Below, one piece after another: positions 5,920 through 22,051 of a stretch of 64,000 nt of DNA. This DNA is from Lutjanus erythropterus (lineage: Eukaryota; Chordata; Actinopteri; Lutjaniformes; Lutjanidae). The position numbers and the translations under genes were made by a program. The notes beneath the pieces are model-generated. The model had not been told where the DNA came from, did no database searches, and was given only the letters and a program-made list of their open reading frames with translations. The stretch is from NCBI GenBank assembly GCA_020091685.1, contig CM034600.1, positions 7,391,837 to 7,455,836 of the forward strand, written 5' to 3'. Numbering within the stretch: the first letter of the stretch is position 1; each line of letters begins with the position of its first letter.

Positions 5920-8900
5920 GTGAGTTCATGCTTAAAACTCTTAATTCTCCAGAGAAAGGTCTGTGCATGCTTTTGAGTTACTTTTTGTTCCATATTGTTA
6001 ATGGAATTTCTTTTTTTTTTTTTTTTTAATTACTTACTCACTTCATTTCTGGCTGGCAAGACACTTTTAAACAAACTTTTACTGTCCCAGACCATGAATG
6101 AAGTATTATTTCAACTCAAATCAAGTCAAGTTAAAATGAGTGACTTTTTTTTTCTTCTTACTACCACTTGGTTGAAACACGTGTTTGACTTTGTAAGTAT
6201 TTTAGTCACTGAGGTGCTAATAAATTCACAAAGACAGGCTGTAAAGTCATGAATGCAAATAACATGGTTGCAAAGCAGAGTATGTGACAGAATGTGAGGA
6301 TGGTCTGAGCAAAGGTATGTGACAAAACAGTGCAGCTTTTCAACGTGTGAAAAGGAACAGCCGAGCAGAGTTAGTAGTAACTATTTAGTCCAATATTTCT
6401 CCTGAACTAAATACTGTATCATTTTGTGTTTTATTCTTTTACCCACTGTCTGTCACCCTCTTTGACCTTCATCTCCAAAACTTAACACGTCTTTTATTTC
6501 AGCTCCTGCTTCTTCTCTAGTTCTTGACTGATCTTTGTGACTTGTCCTGTGAGTGAAAACGGTGTTTCTTCGCCAGTCTTTGGATCAGTGTATTTTTCGT
6601 AATACATCATCTGTTTCCCAGGCACCGATGAAGGCTGCTGCCGACTGAGGCTGCTCAACTTTCATGCTCATGAAAACCACATTTCCCACGAGACAGAGGG
6701 CCTCAGCAAAAAGCAGCTGGTGGTGCGACGAGGGAAACCGTTCAAACTCACTCTGCTCTTCAACAGCCGTTCGTGGAATCCTCACACTGAGATGCTGGTC
6801 CTGGAGGTTTGGCTAGGTACCAAAGATGAGATTAAATCTGCTCGCATTTAAAGGTGGGGTAAGCAATTCTGGAGATAGTGAGACTCTAGTATCTGTCTCC
6901 TGAATCGCTTACCCCACCTTAAAGCACATCCGTGTCATTTATCAAAGATAAAATAACGGCCTTACCCTGACAAATGAAAATTTACATTTATGACTTACTC
7001 AGTAGCTCTGGGGGAAATCTTAGCTATTGTTAGCAAACTTTGCAGTAGAGGTATTACTGATACTACTGATTCCCTACTTCCAGTTTTTATGCTATGCTAG
7101 GCTAACAAAGTCCTGACTCCAGCCTTGTACTCACTTGGTTGAGACCAAGTCAAGACCAAGTCAGGATGAGAGCGAGTCACATCTCCAGTGCTCTCACCCT
7201 GGTGAGGGGATGGTACTGCAGCATATAACGTTTATATTAAAACTAACATCAGTTAATGTTGTCTGTGAAGATTCTCAGTCATCCAGGTCATGGTATTCGC
7301 CAAGGGTTATCATAGGCAGCTGGACTTGGTTAGGTTCTTGAAGACGTTTCACCTCATCTTTAAGAACCTAAGCAAGTCCAGCTGCCCACAATAACGCTTA
7401 CCTTAATGTTGAAGTAACATAACTATTTAAACATTATCCACATAGTTTTATGTGGCCTGTTTTTTGTCACCAGCAAAAAACAAAACTTAGCTAACTGGCT
7501 TTGCTAGTATCACATTAGCTTACCTTTCTTTAAGCTTCCTGTCTAAATGCTGATATAAGTTTGATGGTCCCAGCTGTCTCAGTAAGTGCTGCATTGCAGA
7601 ATTTACCTGGTGTTATGTGTTTTCTTTTGGATGCTGTTTTGCAGATGAACTCTTTAGGGTTTAGGTATGTTAGCCAAATTTTATTACAGATGATTTGGTT
7701 GGCATATCATTGGCAGCCACAGCTTCTTCTCCTGTCTCCCACATTCACTTTTTTTCATTCAGGGGTAGGGAGGGGAGCGGTGACAACTGGTAACGGTAAC
7801 AAAAAATATCCAATTAGAAATTAGCAAAGTTATTACTTGCATTTAGAGCAGTTTTAAATTCAAACACAGTCATGATCAAATAAATCAGACATTATTGCTC
7901 CCAAACTGAACATTTCCTTTGTAAGATGGAAGCAATTTTATTTCTTCATTTACAAGATAATCTCATTTTAAGTAAACTCCAAACTCCACTTTTCTTCACT
8001 ATACAGGCGATATGTCAGAGAGGGTCCCAGTCCAGTTCCCTGAAGAGAGGTCCAACCCCCTCAGGTGGTCAGCCAAAGTCTACCCAGAGGACATGCATCC
8101 TCAGTCAGTCACCATCCACATCTGCTCCCCTGTTCTGTCCTCGGTGGCTCTGTATCACCTCACGGTCCACATAGAGACCATGAGGACAAGAAGGAGCTAT
8201 ACAGTGGGAACATTTGTGCTGCTTTGCAACCCTTGGCTGAAAGGTGGGTCCATGTATTTAGGTTCCTGTTATTATCCACAGTTTTTGTTATTATCTTGTT
8301 ATAAAAGTCGTTCCATACCACTGTTTTTGCTTTTCAGATGATCCAGCCTACATGCCACTGGATGCCCAAATAGAAGAGTACATCAAGAGTGATTATGGGT
8401 TGGTGTACATGGGCACCAATCAAAACATTACTAGGCGGCCCTGGTCGTTTGGTCAGGTATGTGACATTCTACTGTTGTATAGTGCTAGGTTCATCTATGT
8501 TGAAAAGAAAAGCAGAATGTCCGTGTTTCAGGTCATTTTCAGGTCGTAGTGGTGTTTGACACAGGGACAGTAGAGTGGACATGCCCCCAGTGTTTTAGAG
8601 CAGAAAGAAATGCTATTTTTGCATAATTTTGACACAAAATTTTATATACTCAGTTCAAATGTGGCTTGGTGGTTGACAACACATTTCTGTGTTGTGACAA
8701 ACTGAGAACACACATTTATTGTTGCTTTACATGATCTTTAAAAGTTGCTGAGGAGCCTCTGAAAGTGACATAAAGTCACATCTTAAGTTAGCTAATATTA
8801 CCAAAAAGTTCACTAACTAGCTAGCTAATCTACATAAATTGTTAGCTAACTCAGCATTTTGTTAACATTAGCTATCAAACTAGCTAGCTAATATACATCA

Positions 8901-11900
8901 ATAATGACCTAGGTAGTTACATTTGATAGGTAATGTTAGAAAAATGCTACCTAAGTAGCTAGCTAATCTTCATCAATCATAAGTTAGCTGGAGTTTTGCT
9001 GATATTAGCTAACTTAAAATGTGACTATGTATTTTTCACTTTTACAGGTCCCCTAGCAACATCTTTTAACCATCCTCAAAATCTGGCTTTCTTTTCGACA
9101 AAGACAAGCCTAGCACATAGCATATCTGTCAATCACAAAAGGAAAGGAGGAAGATGATTAAGGTTCTGCCGGGTACTAAGCTTGCTCAGCTGTTATTGAA
9201 GTGTAGAGCAAAAAGGGGTGAAATTCAGGAAAGGTCAGTTAAGTATTTTATTAGAAATAACCAGATTTTTACAAAGTAGTATGGCTTGTGGAGGGCCAGT
9301 AGTGATGGAATGTATGTCAGTGATGCAGGCAGCAAAATCTTTTACTAAAACAAAACCTGGAAGTGTAGATCCTAAGGAGAGAGAGGACTACAGCCTTGGT
9401 AGAAGTCTACACAGGAGCCACGAATCAGTGTAACGACCAACCTCAAATCCTGGCTCTTGCAGGAGAAGACAAGTTTGCCTTGTGCAGGCAGAATGGGAGG
9501 GATTGTACCAATTATTGGCTGGTAAAAAAAAATATCAGCACAGCTACACTTGTGTTTCCATGTGTGCAGTATGAGCCTGGAGTTCTAGAGGCATGTCTGC
9601 AGCTCCTGCAGGTCAGCCCGCAGCACCTCAGTGACAAAAACAAAGACTACGTTCTACGAGCAGACCCCGTCTACATCAGCAGGGTGGTCTGTGCTATGGT
9701 GAGATAACAATCGATAACATCCCTGGAATTTATTGAGTGATTTTCTCCACAGCAAAGAAAGAAGTAAAGGTCAGTAATGTTGCCTTCCTGTTCAAGGTGA
9801 ACTGTAACGATGACCTGGGTATTTTGATGGGGAAGTGGCAGGGCAGCTACAAAGATGGTGTCAGGCCCACAGACTGGAGTGGCAGCGCTGATATCCTTCA
9901 CCAGTGGGTCTCGTCCAACTACAGCCCTGTGCGCTATGGGCAGTGCTGGGTCTTTGCAAGTGTCCTCTGCACAGGTACTTTGAAAAACTGCAACACAAGA
10001 GTGTATTTATACGGAAACCATGGGAGACCTTTCAATGTTACTGAGTCATTTCCAAAGCAAGGCAGTTGCTCAACACCTCATTGAAATTTATTGGCCAGTA
10101 ACACAGAGAAGCACTCATAGTTCTCAAGGTTTCAATTTCATACAGTGTTCCAGATAGTTTTTTTTTTCATTTATCACTCATCTGTATTGTGCAAGTGTGA
10201 TGTATTATCCACTGTCATTCTTATTCTGCAGATGACTTAACAATCGTAAATATGCAGTTTGCACTTAAAGTAGATCACTGAGTTTTTTCTCAGAGGTTAA
10301 ATAATGTCTTTGTTAATCTGATTAATAGGAAACATTAACATCACAATTTAGGCCTTGGCTTTGTTAAATTGTTCTGTATAGCAGACGGTTACTATGAATA
10401 AGACACTGTTGCTATGGACAGAGTTCTGATCATGGACTCTAAAGCAGAAATACAATCCAAAATATTTTTTTTAATTAATATTTTGTGTCCAATTCTTGAC
10501 TTTTTTGGCCACTAACCATTTAATAAGAGGGATAATGTACAGTGAGCAGCGTATTATTGCTAAATTAACCCCTTCAAGATGATTCAAGACCCCTCCGCTT
10601 CATGTACGGGTCCTGCAGCACCTTGACTGGGTTTATTTTGCAATAATGACCCGCTCACTGTGCATTATTCCTTACATGTTGGGATCTATGGTTTTCTTTC
10701 ATTACAAACAAATGTATTTTCTCACTTTCCACTGTTGGTGTCTGCTGATAGACCATGATGATACAGACTGGCTCTGTGTTGTTGTAAAAATTAAAATAAG
10801 TAATAAACCTTTTTATAGGTTTGATTGAGTTTTTTTTCTTACAATTTTGTCAAACTGAACCTAAAAACATCATCATCAACATTTCTTCCGTGATTTTTTT
10901 GTGACTTTAAGGCTAATGTTTTTCTTCCAGTGATGAGAGTGCTGGGGATTCCCTCCAGGGTGGTGACAGTTTTTAATGCAGCCCATGACACAGATGGCAA
11001 CTTGACAATTGAAGAATACTACTCAAGCTTGGGGGAAAAGCTCAACCTCTCAAAGGACAGCATTTGGTTGGTGTCTATTGCTCTCATATTGATGAAAAGG
11101 ATTTTTTTTACAGTTCGGTATATTGTTAACATTATCCATATTAAAATTTTAACATAGCCTGTTTTAACATTAAGCTAATGACAATTTTATATGAACATAT
11201 GAATCCACAGAAAAGTAGAGGCCCACATTTCTGTGGATCGTTGTCAACACCTTAGTTATATTTGTAGTGTTTAGTCATTTGTTGAGTGTGTGTGTGTGTG
11301 TGTGTGTGTGTCCTCTTGCAGGAACTTTCATGTGTGGGTGGAATGCTGGATGACGAGGCCAGACCTTGGCGTAGGGTTTGACGGCTGGCAGGTAGTTGAC
11401 CCGACGCCCCAGGAGAAGAGTGCAGGTGGGTCCATCCACAAGTGGGCTTCCACATGGTGCTGTCATTTATTCAGATACCAGTTTTTATAACTTAATGGAT
11501 TTATTTCACTCCTGTCAGCAGATATGTTGTATAACCCAGAATTTATCACTAATTTATCATTTTAACTGTGCAATACATACAGCATAATTATTTACATATT
11601 TATTACATATTAATTACATGATTCTTATTTTGTTATTTTTCTATTTCCCCTTTTCTATTTTATATATATTGTTGTTACTTGTTAATAAGGCACATATTTT
11701 ACATACTTTGTTTTTTAATTTGGTATATTCTTATTGTTAAATAATTGTTGGTTATATATTGGACATTTTTACATTCATTTCTTACAATTTCTCTATGCTT
11801 ATATTTATTTTTATTCTTGAATTGAAGCACCTGTAAAGTGACCCAGTTTTCTGATTTACCTTTTCAATTAATCTTGCTGGAGATACCAGATCAAAACTGA

Positions 11901-14900
11901 ATAATTAAGGTCTGTCTCCTTGTGTAAATGTCACAGAAGGTGGAAAATAATGAATAATGTGACTTATATATGACTGATAACTACCTAAAAACATCATTCT
12001 CTGCAGGGATATTCTGCTGTGGCCCTTGTCCAGTAGTTGCCATCCAGCAACATTACCTCCGTGCCCGTTATGACTCCTCGTTCATCTATGCCTCTGTTGA
12101 CGCCGACATCGTCCGGCTGATTGTGCGCAATGGACTGGTGGTGGGGAGGACGGTGGACACTGAGTCTGTGGGACAGCTCATCTACACCAAGAGCATCGGC
12201 TCAGACAGACCAGAGAACCTGACTCACACTTACAAGAGACAGAAAAGTGAGACACTGTCCTCTACTGTGTGTGAGGCTTTCCATAGAGAGAGATTTACAG
12301 AGTTAAAGGGACAGTTCACTCCAAAACCAAAAAGCATATTCAGAGATATCTGTCTTCTCTCCAATATGGTGGGACAAAATGACAGAAGTCTTGTATTGTT
12401 TTAAGCACCAAAAAATAAATTAAAAAATTCAAATCCAGCATCACTTTCCAAAAATCATGACCTCATTACTCAAGAAATTTCACAGACCTTGTGGTGAGTA
12501 GTTTCATGTAGGAACTACTTTCTCTCTGTTAGAAAGGAAGTTGTTCTAGTAGATTCTAAAGTAGTTCCAGTAGATTCTACTCCAGAAAAAAAGTAGTTTG
12601 AAGACAAAACTGCTCACAACAAGGTCTGTGAATTATTTTGAGAAACTGGGTCATGATTTCTGTAAAGAGACACTGTTTTTTAATTTTTCTAATGTAGTTT
12701 TTGGTGCTTGAAGCAACACATGGCTTGTGCCATTCAGTCTCATTATGTTTGAGATAAGGTAGAAATCTCAATGGTCAATATTTCCCTAACTCTGCAACTT
12801 ACACCAAATCAGTACAGATGAATAAATAGCACTACACCGGAGGAAAAATTTATATTTTTGATTGTGGGGTGAACTGTCCCTTTCACAAAACAGGTTAGAT
12901 ACAGTACAGTGTATCTTCTTAAAAAAGCTGCCAATTTGCGCAATGAGAGGAGTCATCATGATGCAAACACAACATACAGACAGTAGTAGTAGTGTGCTCT
13001 CCCTCTTTTTTCTCAGTTTACAGTATGTTTAAGTTTTTGTTTTCTGTCCATTTTCAGGGCAGAAACCAGCAGACACCTCAAGATGCGGGCAGTTTGGTTA
13101 GTAGCATCTTCACCCTGCACTCTGTGCAGAACACCCACACAAATACCTTAAAATGGAAGGTATTTTGCAACTTAAAAGTTAAAAGTTTTTCCCCCTCTAG
13201 TAGCAGTATGGTGCTGTTTTTACATTCTTTGGTTCCTGTTCTGTTTGTCTCGCCTCACACAAGCACATACACAATACATGTTGCCAATGGCTTTACATTA
13301 TTGCCCTGATGTACGGATGGCGGTTACACGCCCAGAAATGTGAAGGGTAATAGAGGGTGTGGACATGATGTTACAGCAGGCGGAAGTCACTGCAGTTACA
13401 CCCACTGTGGCAGTGTTAGCTTTCAGCTTGAATGCTGTGAAAACATAAGAAAAGAAAGATATCCTTTTATCTTCTTCATGACAATTTAATACTCTCACTT
13501 CTTTCATGAGAAAATCTCTCTCATTTTTACAGTTCAGATGTCTGGTGTGCGGTCCATGAAAATGCAGGCTGGACCAGGTAAGCTTCCAATCTACTCAAAC
13601 TATCACAAAGCATGTGCTTAGACACCATATTGGCTTTATTTTTACAATGCCTCCATAGACTTGTGACTTCACTTGGACTTGAACATTTAAAATTGTTATT
13701 TGTCAAATCACATCATAAATGAGAAAGTTGTGTGATTGAGTGTACAAAAAGATTTGACAAGAAGTTGACAGAACAAACTGACAAAAGCCAAAGAAAGAGA
13801 AGAAAATTAAAAAGAGAAGAAAATAAAAAAAAAGAAAAAGAAAGTTAATGTGGTGGTGACATTCTGATGCAAATTATCACGTCCAATAATTTTCACATGG
13901 GCATGAAGAGATTTCCTGGAGGCCAATTTAATTTCAAGTAGCCTAAGCTGCACAACAGATAATTAACAGCTGTTTCCATCACTCAGACATCAACTTGAAC
14001 GTGATTGGACAAATGCAAAACCCGCTGGTGGTCTTTGTTTTCCATTTTTAACCTACAATAAAGCTTGTCAGATGTTCCAGAGACCTCACATTCCTTCCTC
14101 TTTATTATCCACATATTAGTTACTAAATAATTCAAAAACAAGAAATAGGTTGCGCATTTCCAAATGAAGCTGCACGTCCAAGCCCATTTTATGTGCACAA
14201 AGAACGAGCTCAGAGCACGTAGTCAGGCTGAGCAAGTGTTTTGTTCTCTTCCAGAAATATATCCTTTTATCTTCTTCATGACAATTTAATATTCTCACTT
14301 CTTTCATGAGAAAATCTCTCTCATTTTTACAGGTTTTTATTCTGGTGTGCAGTCCATGAATAGGCAGTCTTTCGCAGGTAAGCTTCCAATCTACTCAAAC
14401 TATCACAAAGCATGTGCTTAGACACCATATTGGCTTTATTTTTACAATGCCTCCATAGACTTGTGACTTCACTTGGACTTGAAGATTTAAAATTGTTATT
14501 TGTGCCATGAACCAATTCAAGTCCCTTTATTTTCTAAATGTTAACCCACCGCTGGAATATAGTAAAATTATCTGTGCAAATGAGGAACTTTGAATGAAAA
14601 CATTTTAGACTGTCTATTCACACTGTCTGAAATCAGCCGCTTATCCATTCATCCACTATTTCCCACATAATAATAAAGCCTCAATATTTTTTCTTTTAAA
14701 TTTCTTATATTTACGAGTAATCATCATGTCACACATGTCCCCACTGACTTCTCCTAGACTGGCAAACTTCTATCAATGGTGAAGATTTGCATTTTTAGTA
14801 TTCAATTCAAAATATGTTATGTGTCCAACCAAAGCAAGTCATTTAAGACCACAGCTTTCCAATGTGACAGGAACGTTTGAGTCAGTCTGCATGTACGCAG

Positions 14901-17900
14901 CTTGTACTGATTATTAGGTTCAGGAAATATACACAAACAGCCCGATTCAAGTAATATTTGATTTATAATGACATGCTTTAAAGGAGAAATCTGTAATATA
15001 TTTACTGTAATAAATAATATAATGAACATTATATGTCATGAGAGCTCAATAAAACATGTTGAGTTGAAATACTCACTTCTCTGACTTCAACTCAGCAGCT
15101 ATGGTGTCCCCCTTTGAAATTTCTATTTTGGGCCGGAATAATAGATTTTCATATGGCTATTTAATATTAATTGGAGTTCAAATAAATGCCAAATGTTCAC
15201 TAAATGAATTAGTGTCTCTTTATGAGTTGTAAGTGAACAATATGTTAATGGAGTTCAGCAGGCAGTGATACAGGCAGCCACTTAACTCAAAGTCCAAAAA
15301 TCTCAAAGTGTGAATTTACAGAGCAGTGGAATTTTGGCTTAACTTTACATTGAAAAACAAATGAAAGTTATAAGCAGCTGATCAGCTTGCAGTGTAGGAC
15401 TTGTCATTACTTTCTCTTGTCAGTTTACGATGTTGCATGCGTCTTGCATTCCTGTGAAGCTCCTGCAGCCTGCCTGAGCTTCCCTGAGTATGGGGAGGAG
15501 GGGGCAGAGGAAACAACTCACTTCAACCGTAGGTCGTATATTGTATAGGATTTCAACCTATTTAATATACCGTCTATGGCTCCATCTCACTATTTGGACT
15601 GCTGTGCTCATTTTTGCATATCCAATTGCTACATATTGTTCCTGTAAGTGTGTGAGATTTATGGGGATTTGTTGAAAGGATATGACAGAAATGGAATGAA
15701 ACACTCAGCATTTATACCTCTCTTCCACGGAGGCCACCATGTTGTGCTGCCATGTTTCTACAGTAGCCCAGAACAAGTTTAAGGCCACTGTGGGTTCTCC
15801 TACACACTTGGAATGGGAGGGTGAGGTGAGGTGTTTGCTGTTTGCGTCTAGTTCACCACTAGATGCCTCTAAATTTTACACAGTGTGTCTCTACGGGGAG
15901 GTTAGATGTCAAATGTAACATGCTTCAAAGTAGTTGTGGTGACCACAGAATTTCATGCATCAACTACTTTCTTTTTGCAGTTGAAAGTGACAATGATCTT
16001 GAGCTTTTGTTTTATGGTGCTTTGAGTACCACAAACCAAGTGCCATTTAGTTTCATTTGGCTTGATAGAAGGCAGACCTCTCTACAGCCAGTATCTCCTT
16101 AACTATGCAACTCACACCAAAAAAATCTATATGGATAAAAATATGGGGGGAAAAATTTGTATTTTTGGTTTTGGGGTGAACTGTCCCTTTAAGATTGCAA
16201 TGTCGTGTACAGTATCGTAGTGTTACCAGTGGAATATTTTCCCCACTGGTTTGTCTGGTACTTATTTTTAGCAACGCTCACATCTCTTCCTTTCAGCTCC
16301 AGAAGCGAAGTCACCTGGTTTGGACGTGTCCCTGAACATAGATGGGGTGCCATCAGTGGGCGACAGCATCGTCATGTGTGTGACGGTCACAAACCAGTCA
16401 AGCAGCCCCAGAATCCTCATGGAGCACGTCAACGCTCAGCTGAAGGAGTACAACAGCAACCCGCAGGAGAGCTTCTGGAAATCACACAAAGAAGTGCACA
16501 TACAGTCGAATGAAGGTGAGGAGTGTTCTTTCAATACATTTTTCAAATTACATTTTTTGTACAATTTACTCTACTGGCTTGGGTGCAGTTATATTACTGT
16601 TTGATGAATTGAATGGCTGAAGAACTTTGAGATAAGATAGAACTTTATTAATCCAGAAGGCGATTCTTGTGTTGAAGATTGCTCCAAAATTAGAGTAACA
16701 GAATCAAACAATAGAGCAGCCATTCCCAAACTTAAGAATGCCAAGGGCAAATCTGAAATCTGGAAATCTTCTGAGGCCCACAACAACTTTAATCACAACT
16801 CTGATCAACACATGAGATTAATCGTGTCAACGACAAGATACATGATACGGAAAAATTAAGAATAAGTCATTTAAATGCCATGGCTTGGGTTTAGTCATGA
16901 TTATTTTTATGAGTTGATCGTAAATATTTTATGGTCATTTCAAACTCAAAAAAATCAAACTTAAAAATATTTTTATTAATTCTTTTTCATGATGAAAAGA
17001 AAGCAGAATTCTGCAAAAAATATTGTAATAAGTAATAATAAAACAAACACTAAAGATTATTTGTAATTTCTGTTTGATTTGTTTCTTTCATGTTAATTTT
17101 TCCACATCCTTTACGTTCTCTGCAGTGTTGAAGCTCTACCACACCATCCCTCTCTCTGAGTATGAGTCAGTGGTGGCAGCTGAAGACATTGTGAACGTGG
17201 CGGTGGTGGTGAAGGACGTGAGGACAAAGGAAAGAGTCCTGGCTGTGCAGGAGTTCAGGATGAGCTCACCAGAGATCACCATAGAGGTACAGCAGCATCC
17301 AGCATCCCTACTCTTCAGCTCTTAAATAAATGATGCAGTGTTGTCTTCCCTTCTCTTTCTTTTTCATCTTTGTTCACTTTGATCTCTTTTGTGGGTGTCA
17401 GTTGGACATGACAATATGAAGTTATTATTTTTATTTTTTATTTTAATGAGTACAGACAGAACTTCATATCAAACTTCATATTCAGCCCCCCCCCCCCCCG
17501 TGCATCCATGCTTGGTGACCTAGATGTTAGAACCTTTCACAATCACTAAATAATATCATGATATTTATAATACATCATTATACACACAAAATTTGCCATG
17601 TGTGACAGTTTATTTCCCTCATCACACAGTCTTACAGTCTTGGAGGTTAATATTGTACACTAAAAATGGTCTGAGGGTAAAATTATTTTTCTTTATTCTT
17701 TATTTCGATCCCTTTAGCCTCTACAAAATGTTTGCTCATCTTCCAGGGTTCCACACAAAAGCAGCATCAGTAAAAACTAACTACAACTTAAAATCACACA
17801 CTGTCAAAAGAAAAGGCAAAACAAGCTGGATCCGTGAAATAATTTTCTACATATGAAAAGGTAGATAACAGGAGCGTGCAATGAAAACACACAAACCAAA

Positions 17901-20900
17901 AGAAAATGGAAAATCAAACCAGGTCCAAACAGCAATAACTGAAAAATGTGTGAAATTTGTAAACTTTTGTGACTTCTACTTTTGAAACTAACAAAGGAGC
18001 AAATTCCAGGCAAAGGAAACTTTATAGAGAACAGTTCTCATCATGCATGTGAAAATGCCACTAATAAGATGGCCAGTGCTCACTTGACATGTATCAAACT
18101 GTCTTCATGACAAGAACTTATTCATAATATGACAAGTTGCATAAGTAACAGATGACTACATGAATTCATCCTCTACATTTAGCTATGATAATCATCGGCA
18201 CATCTCACACATACATGCATTGAATGGAAAATGAAGAGAACAAAGAACTTATCTCGCTGCTCTGTTCTGTGCAGCGTGATTATTTCCTAAATGCTTCTCA
18301 GCAGCTAATGTCAAATGTCTGGGCAGTACTGTGTTACGGAGAAATTACAACAGAAGAAACTGCAATGCACATTTTCGTCATGGAAACAATATGACCAATC
18401 TCAAATTAAGGCAGTAAATTATGCAGTTTAACACCCAACAATATGGTCTTTGTGACAACTGATATTTCATCTATAGACAGGTTGAGAGGAGTGGTTTTAG
18501 TAAGAAATTTCCTGCAAAAACAATACATTTAGTTTTGACAATGTTCAATACTAAACTGCTCATTCTCATCCATTTAGTGGTATGCAGCTCAGCATATAGA
18601 GTCAGTCTTATTAATGTTGTTGAACAGAATTGAGTCATCTGCATACATTACTACAGAGGGGTACCAGCCACCAGCCAAATGCTGGTAAAATATTCAAGTG
18701 TCCTGGTACATTTGCTTCACTCACCAGCCCAAAAACAATGCTAATGAATGGCTGGTAAAATCTGAACAATGACTAGCCATTATGCTGGTGGATGAAGAAG
18801 TTAATTACAGACCCTGTAAGAAGAGGTGGAGGTAACTAATTACAACTGCTCAAATTACTGTAATTAAGTAGGTTTTTTTTTCTTGATACTTTTTTCTTGA
18901 TGCTTTTATGAGTACATTTTCAAATCTGTACTTTTACTTTAAGTATGCATTACAAGATATAATCTACTTAGTTACTTTTAAAATCATAGTTGAGTACTGA
19001 GTACAATTTGAATTAATATCCAAACCTTTCATCTGCATTTTAGTAGCCAGTAAGGTGATTTGATCACAGATGGACCAATGAAAACCTGAACATATGGATG
19101 AAAAACAAAACAAAATGCTGCAGCAGCTCATGTTTGGAGTAAGGAAGTTAATGATCAATCATTAATCAATTAATTGCCAGCAAGAATTTAACCAAATAAA
19201 AATGTTTTCATTGATATTTATTCAATAGTCATAGCAGTAACTGCACCTCATTTTCTGGAGGAGCCGTTTGTTGATTAAGGAAAATTTAACTTAGACTTAA
19301 AATGACAAGAAATAAGAAATAAAAAAGAAAATAAGGGGAAAAACTTGTTTTGTATCTTGTAATTTACAAGATACAAAACAAGTTAATCAACTGTTGTCAT
19401 TTTCAACAATGGGTAACTATGTAACTATGGTGTTTCCACAGATCGAAGGAGGGGACAGCATCCAGGTGAAGAAGGAGTACACTGCCCACGTGTCCTTCGT
19501 CAACACATTTACCAAAACTTTGAGCGAAGCTGTGCTGACTGTAGAGGGATTTGGCTTGTTACAGGGCAAACAAGTAGCCAGGTAAGTCTGTTTATAGTTG
19601 GACTGAAAGACAGACAATAAATCATCATTTTAAAGAGATATTTCTGGTTACACAAAACTCCAACTTTAGTTGAGTTCATTGGAGTTTTTTGTGATTTTCC
19701 AAAGAGCAACTCAAACAAACTCATCAAACTCAGGAAGTGAAACTACCCAAACATTTTTTTTTATATTTCTGGTTGTTGCCTGCGTGGCTCGTTAAGATAA
19801 CAGAGGTGTTCTTCAAAAAAAAAAAAAAAAAAATACAGTCCATCCTGCGATCACATTCTGGTGATGTCATGCATGTCTTCCTCATTTGAGGTGAGAAGGA
19901 AAGATCGGTTTATGCTTGAAGTGTCTGAGGAATGTGGTTTGGGAATGCTGTCAGGTATGTTGTTGCAGCAGTGGGAACATAAAGTTGTTACAACTGAACG
20001 TGGCTGCATAACTTTGTGGGCAGAGGAAACTGCTTCTACAGATAACTAAATCACAGAATTTATATATTAAAAGAAAAGTGAAAATAACTTCATAATTGAA
20101 AGTAATGATGAGTGCATCAGAAAAAAAAAACAAGAGAAGACATAAAATAAAAGCCACAGCACAGTTCAGATTGATGTGCAGTGTGTCTCTCTGGCTGTGA
20201 CATGCACTGTCATTTTTTAATAATTCATCACAACCATTCCATGGGTAATTTCAAATATTCCAAACACATTTTTCAAAACAGTGTCTGTTCCTTAAAATAT
20301 ATACCATTATAACCCATGACCAGCTTCTTAAATCTACAGCTGACCTCAAGGTATCCCTCCTTAAACTGTAATTTGCATTGTTGTATATTATATTATTGTA
20401 ACGTTACTGTTCATTTCAAACAAACCTAATCCACTGCTCTCTACAGTGGTCGCCTTATAGTTGCAGCATAGCTGAAACACATTAATCTGCACCTTCGCTC
20501 TGTGTGCAAGTTAGAAAATGTGTGTTTTTCCACATGTAAATATTTAATTTTGTTTTGGTCCGAGAGTGTGTCATATTATTAGTATTGTATTTATTTTCAT
20601 ATGGGAGACTAGGGGCAGTTTTAACAGGGGGCAAGTGTAACACGCTTTATTTGCCTAATCACAAACAAGCTAGAGTGATGACACTTAACACTGCACTGGA
20701 ATTTATAATCTAGTTACCACTACAGTAGCCTTGCTTTGAATGCATATGATGCCTGACATCTAAAATAATTTGAAAAATCTTAAGTGATACTATCAGATAC
20801 TGCAGCAATAATGTGATTAATTTCAGGTTCATTTGTATTTGAGATACAGTGGGTTAATATGACTTGCTCTAACAGTGCAACTGTAATACTCTTTTTGACG

Positions 20901-21719: not shown

Positions 21720-22051
21720 TATATTTTCTGCTGTGGAACATAAATATCAAGCTAATTGCCCATTTCATTCATTGTCCAATATCATTGTCAGCTCTTTGGC
21801 AAAAGAATGGATCTCCAGACTGTTTCAGGGCTGCTCAGGAGATACTTTATGAGAGCCGCAATTTGGAAAGATTACATTTCTCTTCCCTCTCTCTCAGATT
21901 GGTTCTCCTGCAGCCGGGCGACAAAATAGAGAAGACAGTGTCCATCATGGCCACTTCACCGGGCACTAAACTGCTGATGGCCTCTTTCTCACACAGCCAC
22001 AGCCCCAGCATCGTTTCGAGGAGCTTCCACAAAGTCTCCATCCTGCCTTAA
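5883..22051 (+). CDS. Transglutaminase gene (TGM2/TGM5-like), 14 coding exons plus one duplicate
   Basis: Calcium-dependent protein-glutamine gamma-glutamyltransferase, which joins glutamine side chains to lysines or polyamines through a cysteine thioester. Exons: 5883-5919 (proposed), 6622-6816, 8007-8243, 8338-8456, 9570-9698, 9797-9974, 10931-11066, 11322-11425, 12007-12246, 13533-13577 or 14333-14377, 16297-16515, 17126-17286, 19442-19581, 21898-22051. All introns are GT-AG and phases agree throughout. One exon 10 gives 697 residues; both in tandem give 712. Domains: N-terminal beta-sandwich about 14-155, catalytic core about 156-460, linker about 459-474, beta-barrel 1 about 475-600, beta-barrel 2 about 601-697. 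Trp253, Cys289 (YGQCWVF), His347 (NFHVW) and Asp370 (VVDPTPQE) match TGM2 Trp241, Cys277, His335 and Asp358 with identical spacing. No signal peptide or membrane segment is seen. The family is certain; the exact paralogue is not, so no symbol is given. Confidence 0.95.
5920..6621 (+). other. Intron 1
   Basis: Non-coding stretch between the proposed exon 1 and exon 2. It has a poly(T) run near 6010-6027 and no recognisable element. It ends in CTGTTTCCCAG at 6611-6621. Confidence 0.5.
6622..6816 (+). CDS. Transglutaminase exon 2, N-terminal beta-sandwich
   Basis: 195 nt, entering and leaving in phase 1. It encodes residues 14-77, including [14 protein letters not shown], then [16 protein letters not shown], the family signature (LxVRRGQPF), then VLEVWL. 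It ends before the donor GTACCA. Confidence 0.93.
6851..6920. mobile_element. 70-bp hairpin MITE in intron 2
   Basis: AAGGTGGGGTAAGCAATTCT (6851-6870) pairs with the reverse complement of AATCGCTTACCCCACCTT (6903-6920). The roughly 25-bp arms have two mismatches and enclose a short loop. Confidence 0.7.
7255..7405. repeat. Fish dispersed repeat with hairpin, intron 2
   Basis: The stretch with GAAGATTCTCAGTCATCCAG (7268-7287) is a motif I know from a very common teleost repeat. Further on, GGCAGCTGGACTTGGTTAGG (7315-7334) pairs with a complementary arm ending in AGTCCAGCTGCC (about 7376-7387). No coding content. Confidence 0.6.
8007..8243 (+). CDS. Transglutaminase exon 3, beta-sandwich
   Basis: 237 nt, phase 1 at both ends. 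It encodes residues 79-156. The end [12 protein letters not shown] matches the family block (FxLLFNPW) that closes the N-terminal sandwich and starts the core. Acceptor ATACAG (8001-8006), donor GTGGGT (8244). Confidence 0.95.
8338..8456 (+). CDS. Transglutaminase exon 4, start of catalytic core
   Basis: 119 nt, phase 1 in and phase 0 out, residues 158-196. It reads [17 protein letters not shown], then DYGLVYMG, then RPWSFGQ, the conserved PWxFGQ block of transglutaminases. Where TGM2 has Lys173 and Phe174, which contact GTP, this protein has Gln and Asn. The intron before it is only 94 bp. Confidence 0.95.
8480..9235. repeat. Composite dispersed repeat in intron 4
   Basis: 8515-8600 (GTGTTTCAGGTCATTTTCAGG and following) matches 62390-62470. 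9048-9235 (AGGTCCCCTAGCAACATC onward, then ACTAAGCTTGCTCAGCTGTT) matches one arm of the hairpin element at 54190-54590, and a further relative lies at 28490-28620. The middle, 8785-9010, is dense in GCTAGCTAA/TTAGCTAGC words. Probably a partial copy of one element family. Confidence 0.6.
9570..9698 (+). CDS. Transglutaminase exon 5, catalytic core
   Basis: 129 nt, phase 0 at both ends, residues 197-239. It reads [15 protein letters not shown] and ends [12 protein letters not shown], matching the family block PVYVxRVVSxMVN. Acceptor GTGTGCAG, donor GTGAGA. Confidence 0.95.
9797..9974 (+). CDS. Transglutaminase exon 6, active-site cysteine
   Basis: 178 nt, phase 0 in and phase 1 out, residues 240-298. 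It contains [14 protein letters not shown] (Trp253, transition-state stabilisation), [12 protein letters not shown], then [15 protein letters not shown] with the nucleophile Cys289. The spacing from Trp253 to Cys289 is 36 residues, as in TGM2 (241 to 277). Cys242 matches TGM2 Cys230, a redox-sensing residue. Confidence 0.97.
9975..10930 (+). other. Intron 6
   Basis: Non-coding, 956 bp. I see no recognisable element in it. It ends in TTTTTCTTCCAG. Confidence 0.5.
10931..11066 (+). CDS. Transglutaminase exon 7, catalytic core
   Basis: 136 nt, phase 1 in and phase 2 out, residues 300-343 with split codons Val299 and Trp344. It reads [19 protein letters not shown], the conserved LGIPxRVVTxxxSAHD block, and ends KDSI before the split Trp. 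The exon ends ATTTG, donor GTTGGT. Confidence 0.95.
11286..11311 (+). repeat. (GT)13 tract at the exon 8 acceptor
   Basis: An uninterrupted GT repeat of 26 bases is followed directly by TCCTCTTGCAG and then exon 8. The pyrimidine tract left between the repeat and the splice site is very short. Confidence 0.95.
11322..11425 (+). CDS. Transglutaminase exon 8, catalytic His and Asp
   Basis: 104 nt, phase 2 in and phase 1 out, residues 345-378. [15 protein letters not shown] holds His347, and [14 protein letters not shown] holds Asp370. With Cys289 these complete the triad at the same spacing as in TGM2. Donor GTGGGT. Confidence 0.97.
11426..12006 (+). other. Intron 8
   Basis: Non-coding, 581 bp, very AT-rich in the middle. 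It ends in CATTCTCTGCAG. I see no element in it. Confidence 0.5.
12007..12246 (+). CDS. Transglutaminase exon 9, end of catalytic core
   Basis: 240 nt, phase 1 at both ends, residues 380-458. It begins [13 protein letters not shown], where the vicinal pair Cys382-Cys383 corresponds to TGM2 Cys370-Cys371. It continues [27 protein letters not shown] and ends LTHTYKRQK, the usual THTYK end of the core. Donor GTGAGA at 12247. The open frame runs on to about 12404 into a MITE, but that part is intron. Confidence 0.96.
12305..12893. mobile_element. Palindromic MITE in intron 9
   Basis: Terminal inverted repeats AAAGGGACAGTTCACTCCAA (12305) and GGGGTGAACTGTCCCTTT (about 12876-12893). The inner parts also pair: TTTTAAGCACCAAAAAA near 12399 against TTTTTGGTGCTTGAAGCAA near 12698, and ACAGACCTTGTGGTGAG against CACAACAAGGTCTGTG. 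The element is therefore a long imperfect hairpin of roughly 290-bp arms. A right end of the same type lies at about 16158-16192. Confidence 0.8.
13454..13703 (+). repeat. Exon 10 duplication, unit A
   Basis: Direct repeat of 14254-14503, offset exactly 800 bp. The intron parts (13454-13532 and 13578-13703, 205 nt) differ from unit B at only 3 positions by my count. The enclosed 45-nt exon differs at 15. The 550 bp between the units show no similarity to each other. Confidence 0.9.
13533..13577 (+). CDS. Transglutaminase exon 10A, linker cassette
   Basis: 45 nt (15 codons), phase 1 at both ends, between TTTTTACAG and the donor GTAAGC. Joined to exon 9 it reads Ile459 then [14 protein letters not shown], then Ala474 shared with exon 11. 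This is the surface linker between the catalytic core and beta-barrel 1, and including it restores the usual linker length. Not confirmed by transcript; phase, splice sites and the paired copy support it. Confidence 0.7.
14254..14503 (+). repeat. Exon 10 duplication, unit B
   Basis: Second copy of the 250-bp unit. Its acceptor region, donor GTAAGCTTCC and about 120 bases of downstream intron are nearly the same as in unit A. This keeps intact splice signals on both copies. Confidence 0.9.
14333..14377 (+). CDS. Transglutaminase exon 10B, alternative linker cassette
   Basis: 45 nt, same phase and splice signals as exon 10A. Joined to exon 9 it reads Ser459 then [14 protein letters not shown], then Ala474. 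It shares SGV, SM and Gln with exon 10A but differs at 8 of 14 full codons. It is open only in the phase the gene needs; the next frame has a stop at 14358-14362. It could replace 10A or follow it in frame (A then B gives a Gly junction). Which is used cannot be read from the sequence. Confidence 0.68.
14504..15719 (+). other. Intron 10, unique part
   Basis: Non-coding AT-rich sequence with no recognisable element. Confidence 0.45.
15720..15882 (-). mobile_element. MITE fragment, inverted, intron 10
   Basis: The reverse strand of this stretch (around GCCACCATGTTGTGCTGCCA and GGTTCTCCTACACACTTGG) resembles the common percomorph MITE whose other copy is at 36866-37226. Only part of it is present. 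Confidence 0.5.
15883..16192. mobile_element. Truncated MITE, right end of the 12305 type
   Basis: Ends in GGGGTGAACTGTCCCTTTAA, the same right terminus as the element in intron 9, with the internal stretch ACTCACACCAAAAAAATC resembling 12800-12813. No left terminus is seen. Confidence 0.6.
16297..16515 (+). CDS. Transglutaminase exon 11, beta-barrel 1
   Basis: 219 nt, phase 1 at both ends, residues 475-546. It reads [20 protein letters not shown], then [18 protein letters not shown], which fits the start of barrel 1 in the family. The TGM2 GTP-contacting arginines Arg476 and Arg478 have no arginine counterparts here. A second frame across the same exon is also open but has no family similarity. 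Confidence 0.92.
16625..16800. repeat. Probable dispersed repeat, intron 11
   Basis: The stretch TAGAACTTTATTAATCCAGA followed by AGGCGATTCTTGTGTT resembles a widespread fish repeat that carries an ACTTTATTRATCC motif. The boundaries are approximate. Confidence 0.45.
17126..17286 (+). CDS. Transglutaminase exon 12, end of beta-barrel 1
   Basis: 161 nt, phase 1 in and phase 0 out, residues 548-600. It ends [18 protein letters not shown], aligned with TGM2 LLAERDLYLENPEIKI. The TGM2 GTP-binding residues Arg580 and Tyr583 are Gln and Arg here. Acceptor TCTCTGCAG, donor GTACAG. Confidence 0.93.
17287..19441 (+). other. Intron 12
   Basis: Non-coding. It has a run of 14 C at 17486-17499. Around 18660-18790 there are repeated words with CCAGCC/GGCTGGTAAAAT that look like a MITE remnant. 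Just before exon 13 is a perfect palindrome (19342-19384). Confidence 0.5.
19342..19384. repeat. Perfect 43-bp palindrome upstream of exon 13
   Basis: The arm of 21 bases at 19342-19362 is the exact reverse complement of 19364-19384, with one base (T) between. It is 57 bp before exon 13. Confidence 0.95.
19442..19581 (+). CDS. Transglutaminase exon 13, beta-barrel 2
   Basis: 140 nt, phase 0 in and phase 2 out, residues 601-646. It reads [20 protein letters not shown], then [19 protein letters not shown], matching the NPLxxxLxxxxxxVEGxGL block of barrel 2. Acceptor TTTCCACAG, donor GTAAGT. Confidence 0.95.
19582..20602 (+). other. Intron 13, first part
   Basis: Non-coding AT-rich sequence with a poly(A) run near 19815-19833. 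No recognisable element. Confidence 0.45.
20603..21062. mobile_element. MITE-like element, intron 13
   Basis: GGGAGACTAGGGGCAGTTTT (20603) pairs with AACTGTCCCCAGTCTCCCC (about 21044-21062) as terminal inverted repeats of about 23 bp. No coding content inside. Confidence 0.7.
21638..21718 (+). repeat. (CA)n microsatellite, intron 13
   Basis: CA repeat with CCCAC interruptions at the left end, then about 28 uninterrupted units. It lies 180 bp before exon 14. An open frame across it gives a His-Thr peptide that is not real. Confidence 0.95.
21898..22051 (+). CDS. Transglutaminase exon 14, C-terminus and stop
   Basis: 154 nt, phase 2 in, residues 648-697 then TAA at 22049-22051. It reads [18 protein letters not shown] and ends [11 protein letters not shown], at the place where the family ends with a short beta-strand. 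The pyrimidine tract TCTTCCCTCTCTCTCAG is strong. Confidence 0.95.

Follow-up and report, generated by a model that had tools for sequence, protein, structure and literature searches.

A transglutaminase gene with duplicated mini-exons

A 64,000-nucleotide stretch of the Lutjanus erythropterus genome (GenBank assembly GCA_020091685.1, contig CM034600.1, positions 7,391,837 to 7,455,836 of the forward strand), hereafter called the window, carries what is, judged from the predicted protein, a fish transglutaminase gene. Within the intron that separates its catalytic core from beta-barrel 1 lie two 45-nt mini-exons, 10A and 10B, which belong to a duplicated unit and differ from each other far more than the intron sequences that flank them.

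The Pfam domains Transglut_N, core and C score 81.8, 50.6 and 39.2 bits, against curated cut-offs of 27, 23 and 26.6, and catalytic Cys-His-Asp motifs are present when the protein is aligned to TG2. No second transglutaminase gene was found in the window by tblastn. When the mini-exons are excluded, the gene model has 13 exons with predicted boundaries (Table 1). TG2, TG3 and TG5 genes have 13 exons, with exon 9 unsplit. TG1 and FXIIIA genes have 15, with exon 9 split (PMC13073648). The predicted structure thus corresponds to the TG2/3/5-type plan, unlike that of TG1 and FXIIIA. Among the best 120 of 2983 protein matches, nearly all are by name from spiny-rayed fishes, and their labels are 2-like, 5-like and E-like. 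The closest relative among these 120 is Symphorus nematophorus, a snapper, at 81% identity.

The preliminary description of this locus had reported two 250-bp units lying 800 bp apart, with 3 differences in 205 flanking positions and 15 in 45 exon positions, and gapless alignment bears this out: the offset is exactly 800 and no gaps are needed. The flanks comprise 79 nt upstream, with two differences (13458 and 13492), and 126 nt downstream, with one (13684). The spliced model likewise upholds the claim that a mini-exon of the linker between core and beta-barrel 1 is duplicated with the same phase and splice signals, and the adjoining bases, tttttacag before the exon and gtaagctt after it, are identical in both copies. 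Identity extends over 40 nt before and 106 nt after the cassette exon, so that the three intron differences lie nearer to the ends of the units; on the left it breaks off with the first base of the exon, and on the right it is restored three bases short of the exon end. The units are separated by 550 bp of other sequence. Beyond them similarity is at chance level (160/200 and 90/200 shuffles equal or higher), giving no sign of an older, longer duplication. A third copy was not found in the window by blastn, and with two copies only the unit is not a dispersed repeat there.

The difference in divergence between exon and intron is highly significant when bases are counted singly (Fisher p = 4e-10). 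However, the exon differences are clustered, with 7 of the first 8 bases and 4 of the last 7 affected, and when neighbouring changes are merged the exon events number 7, 5 or 4, with one-sided p = 0.0003, 0.006 or 0.02, respectively. The contrast survives this merging, although it is weaker than the raw count implies. In the frame of the gene (phase 1), 8 of 14 full codons are changed and all 8 changes are replacements, against an expectation of about half of one replaced codon in a 14-codon cassette evolving at the intron rate, by arithmetic from the alignment.

The cassettes are phase-1 mini-exons situated between the catalytic core and beta-barrel 1. A further candidate, 9b, was omitted from the earlier list of mini-exons, which was correct for 10A and 10B. 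Its peptide resembles an KKRGQPAGTVRGTAR-like stretch that several relatives have immediately after TYK, and support for it is modest (2/200 shuffles score as high). The lengths of 9b, 10A and 10B are all multiples of three and each exon begins and ends in phase 1, which means that they can be combined in any way without a frameshift. A rule-based scan of positions 12260-16280 for cassettes returned four candidates, two of which are 10A and 10B, and missed 9b, which has a weaker donor. The other two (15424-15453 and 15764-15820) look like chance.

It had been proposed that the two cassettes are either swapped or used in tandem. Swapping gained no support, and joint use is predicted to be the likelier arrangement: inclusion of both exons is expected because 45 + 45 nt keep the frame, because the intron between them is 755 nt long, and because eight relatives have repeated linker peptides. 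The pair are tandem homologous exons, a feature shared with mutually exclusive exons, and nothing seen in the anatomy of the locus appears to force an either-or choice.

Table 1. Predicted exons of the transglutaminase gene, candidate mini-exons and duplicated units (positions within the window)
Feature	Positions	Strand	Basis or remarks
Predicted coding span, ATG to TAA	5883..22051	+	Spliced model, Pfam domains, relatives
Exon 1 plus split codon	5883..5919	+	Matches N-terminal consensus MDxMQQT of 45 aligned relatives
Exon 2	6622..6816	+	GT-AG, homology
Exon 3	8007..8243	+	Spliced model
Exon 4	8338..8456	+	Spliced model
Exon 5	9570..9698	+	Spliced model
Exon 6, catalytic Cys in YGQCWVFA	9797..9974	+	Spliced model, TG2 alignment
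Exon 7	10931..11066	+	Spliced model
Exon 8, catalytic His and Asp	11322..11425	+	Spliced model, TG2 alignment
Exon 9, end LTHTYKRQK, phase 1	12007..12246	+	Spliced model
Candidate mini-exon 9b	13058..13096	+	39 nt, phase 1 at both ends, weaker donor gttagt
Duplicated unit A	13454..13703	+	Gapless alignment to unit B
Cassette exon 10A	13533..13577	+	45 nt, spliced model and alignment
Duplicated unit B	14254..14503	+	Gapless alignment to unit A
Cassette exon 10B	14333..14377	+	45 nt, spliced model and alignment
First exon past cassettes, beta-barrel 1 start GLDVSLNI, phase 1	16297..16515	+	Relatives' ..SPGLEVSLNI
Second exon past cassettes	17126..17286	+	Spliced model
Third exon past cassettes, C-terminal domain	19442..19581	+	Pfam Transglut_C
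Last exon with stop	21898..22051	+	Spliced model

The linker in related fishes

Among relatives, which were drawn from the best 120 of 2983 and the best 120 of 2219 protein matches, no part of the protein is less conserved than the linker between LTHTYK and LDVSL. In all 17 of 17 chosen ortholog pairs the divergence of the linker exceeds that of the remaining protein, with ratios of 1.6 to 7.3 and a median of 3.5. This set was derived from 24 hand-chosen pairs, from which 10 were removed by hand (mismatched isoforms, short overlap, one species, distance) and to which three were added; P0020, P0035 and P0090 each occur in two pairs, the non-NCBI models P0023, P0072 and P0091 occur one in each of three pairs, and P0106 has a start that resembles read-through. 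Of the original 24 pairs, a broader and less clean set, 22 likewise have a linker that is less conserved than the remaining protein; the exceptions are Tautogolabrus with Labrus bergylta, where 2 linker residues were aligned, and a pair formed by two Larimichthys crocea models.

Orthologous linkers differ at 18-50% of residues in the 17 pairs, compared with 57% (8/14) between the 10A and 10B peptides, and those that differ by more than 30% are between genera, except for Channa argus and Channa striata. The ordinary pace of the linker is, as far as these predicted proteins tell, insufficient for the difference between A and B. The earlier view that the exon has evolved faster than its introns is thus sound as to the contrast itself, but the 15 differences may represent 4-7 events and fast change is normal for this linker, so that only the excess over the introns is unusual.

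Linker length ranges from 8 to 91 residues (median 43) in 92 of the 120 models, the others having been put aside by source or by signs of read-through. By the same measure the predicted linker in the window has 25 residues with one cassette, 40 with both and 53 when 9b is added; shorter linkers are seen in one model each of cod, trout and Lepidogalaxias. The linkers are high in S, G, P, A, R and M and low in I, L, V, F and W, a composition unlike that of the rest of the protein and unlike that of this gene's translated introns, which suggests that the sequence of the loop is not arbitrary.

Internal repeats that score above all 100 shuffles are present in 13 of 98 linkers tested, where about 1 of 98 is expected by chance; the 13 include two models of one species (P0046 and P0118). 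Strong repeats occur in eight genera, namely Centropristis, Labrus, Plectropomus, Solea, Dissostichus, Cheilinus, Channa and Seriola, and these eight relatives have two or three copies of the repeated peptide per protein model. In Cheilinus a 15-residue unit, the size encoded by the 45-nt exons, occurs three times. In an attempt to polarise A against B with 20 cassettes of relatives, both peptides beat most shuffles (3/500 and 6/500 scored as high), but the motif by which these cassettes were picked itself favours both. A region search with the linker yielded five proteins from 25 candidates, all of them already among the matches listed.

In seven public models (P0009, P0022, P0031, P0049, P0096, P0106 and P0116) the linker starts with K/N-SK, as if the donor gtaag were coding. 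In these models the splice donor seems to have been translated and not used, so some linkers would be annotation artefacts, and automatic annotation may often lose linker mini-exons. Three related transglutaminases of Cheilinus undulatus (P0011, P0052 and P0081) have quite different linkers; their contigs are given with one and the same length, and they are likely tandem paralogs. One 65% match, P0112, is labelled Lampetra planeri and comes from a 34-kb contig; it has the appearance of a fish sequence within a lamprey assembly.

Human TG3 is activated by cleavage within a particular interval, and the fish linker maps to this same interval. In a structure model of a relative, which is not the protein of the window, residues 458-506 fall below a predicted local distance difference test (pLDDT) score of 50. 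Human TG3 keeps a YPEGSDQER stretch before its loop, but the fish loop lacks it. The fish loop also differs from that of human TG3 in being highly variable and seemingly at least partly encoded by mini-exons, and its own cleavage is putative.

Origin of the difference between 10A and 10B

We tentatively favour, as possible though short of probable, a recent duplication of one cassette, after which both copies would be spliced in and a fast, favoured change of the loop would re-tune how the enzyme is opened or shielded. The starting point is visible in the sequence: small phase-1 exons, multiples of three in length, sit in the intron between core and beta-barrel 1. They would have been added to an older 13-exon plan and are presumably used in transcripts. 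They would encode a variable loop at the human TG3 cut site, where the position is shown by alignment, the flexibility is predicted from the relative's model, and the function is presumed. One mini-exon would then have been duplicated along with its intron flanks, and recently, given an intron divergence of 1.5%. Frame and relatives suggest that joint splicing of the two copies is most likely, which would give a longer loop containing new sequence. Coding change after the duplication would have been fast, partly in clusters of adjacent bases, and altered loops would have been favoured, probably through a change in the protease that opens the enzyme or in the shielding given by the loop.

Several results weigh against this explanation. 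The linker of the window with A and B combined, which is among the 98 tested, fails the repeat test, and the repeats of relatives are near-identical and could sit within a single exon. The Symphorus linker has no clear A- or B-like peptide (5/14 aligned residues, 36%), and the mean scores of the 10A and 10B peptides against linkers of relatives are not above those of shuffles (90/200 and 46/200 as high). In the relative's structure model, residues 9-17, 241-258 and 374-381 also fall below pLDDT 50. The preliminary description had stressed that all eight codon changes are replacements and none is silent; the count is correct, but it carries little weight, as no silent codon is expected by chance with P = 0.20 (14 random changes, stops excluded). 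Finally, the exon exceeds the introns about 17-fold (by arithmetic), compared with the 3.5-fold that is usual for the linker over the rest of the protein, and an excess so far above that pace suggests something beyond ordinary fast evolution.

Besides the preferred selected burst after a recent duplication, homogenisation of the introns of an old duplication and capture of two old alleles are possible, and clustered mutation could contribute to each of these or act alone. If the duplication is old, the exons would have drifted at the fast pace of the linker while gene conversion kept the flanks alike, with conversion across the exon blocked by mismatches or removed by selection. The pair does look old by protein, as its peptides differ by more than any of the 17 orthologous linkers, and identical intron tracts adjoin the exon, with the differences lying outward. 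However, the edges of identity coincide with the first exon base and with a point three bases before the exon end, the unit stops abruptly with unrelated sequence beyond, and, by general expectation, conversion alone would seem to need flanks longer than 79 and 126 nt. Also, three intron differences are too few to reveal tract structure. We consider this history unlikely, though a serious contender.

The concentration of differences at the two exon ends also raises the prospect that one or two multi-nucleotide or template-switch mutations replaced the ends of one copy, in a loop that is unconstrained, so that chance and not selection would be responsible. The strictest merging of events, which leaves only p = 0.02, is in keeping with this. 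Nevertheless, at least 4 events would have fallen in 45 exon bases, compared with 3 in 205 intron bases, and the composition of the linker is unlike that of translated introns. Exact 11- and 12-mers over either exon revealed no donor template within positions 9000-20000, save one 12-mer that spans the acceptor of copy A. Mutation clusters as the whole explanation are quite unlikely.

More doubtful still is a duplication that joined two already diverged alleles, which balancing or diversifying selection had maintained while recombination kept their introns alike. Exon 2 of major histocompatibility complex (MHC) class II genes has such diverged exon alleles, with introns kept alike by recombination. 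Allele capture would explain divergence limited to the exon with no burst after duplication, and the linker is strongly variable between species. However, the MHC comparison is an analogy, and passages of PMC12674619 neither support nor deny it. An assembly or haplotype artefact is very improbable, since the units have 550 bp of other sequence between them and the frame and splice sites are intact in both.

A broader proposal extends the preferred selected burst to a whole group of fishes. In spiny-rayed fishes the TG3-type activation loop might have become an evolving bait made of small, interchangeable phase-1 exons that are duplicated repeatedly and, under selection, outpace neutral DNA in their divergence, with each lineage resetting which proteases unlock the enzyme. 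We regard this as a speculative idea with a low probability of being correct.

Comparison with known systems

To our knowledge, few genes other than venom and immune genes have exons that differ more than their introns. This locus shows the contrast within a single enzyme gene, between two short exons with 755 bp between them, at a site homologous to a known protease switch. Relatives seem to repeat the same process, and thus may offer a natural series in which selection, gene conversion and mutation clusters can be compared. The linker is a possible place where evolution re-tunes the enzyme, perhaps with an activation loop that can be re-tuned by the addition of exons. Among the papers listed in searches of open-access literature, none was on duplicated or hypervariable linker exons in transglutaminases.

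In accelerated segment switch in exons to alter targeting (ASSET), described for three-finger toxins of snake venom, short exon segments change drastically and introns stay alike, by a mechanism that the authors call unknown (PMC2474615, PMC2711939). As in ASSET, exon segments of A and B are switched and the introns are similar, but ASSET operates between duplicate toxin genes and here the exons are duplicates within one enzyme gene. The A and B exons work like ASSET and are not counted as a case of it, as no paralogous venom genes are involved.

Tandem duplicated exon substitutions in human genes also involve tandem homologous exons within one gene; most of them are of ancient origin, their changes are for the most part conservative, and their splicing is mutually exclusive (PMC9741552). 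Unlike that set, the A/B pair appears young by intron identity, shows many drastic changes and is likely to be included jointly. Variable exon arrays of Dscam are similar in that duplicated exons are kept different. They comprise dozens of mutually exclusive exons, and that study reportedly found neither conversion nor positive selection between exon paralogs, with low power noted by its authors (PMC3236188). Splice variants of the alpha-2-macroglobulin bait region alter a variable, protease-sensitive stretch by splicing (a tick paper known by its title, cited in PMC2685406, and otherwise general knowledge). That protein is an inhibitor, unlike the unrelated cross-linking enzyme considered here.

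Other elements in the window

Ten open frames were compared with Pfam as a check for neighbouring genes; they included one exon of this transglutaminase gene, itself without a match. One of the ten matched, below the cut-off: the frame at 1533-1829 resembles HTH_Tnp_Tc3_2. Positions 1387-1829 hold the remnant of a Tc1/Tc3-type transposase gene, in which the overlapping frame 1387-1815, without a match, was judged by eye. Peptide fragments at 2141-2550 look by eye like what is presumably the end of a long interspersed nuclear element (LINE) reverse transcriptase, and the frame at 2347-2550 had no Pfam match. The intron before the cassettes contains a fold-back element at 12302-12886, with ends near TTAAAGGGACAGTTCACYCC, which resembles a non-autonomous DNA transposon. 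A fragment related to it lies at 16011-16192, in the intron after the cassettes.
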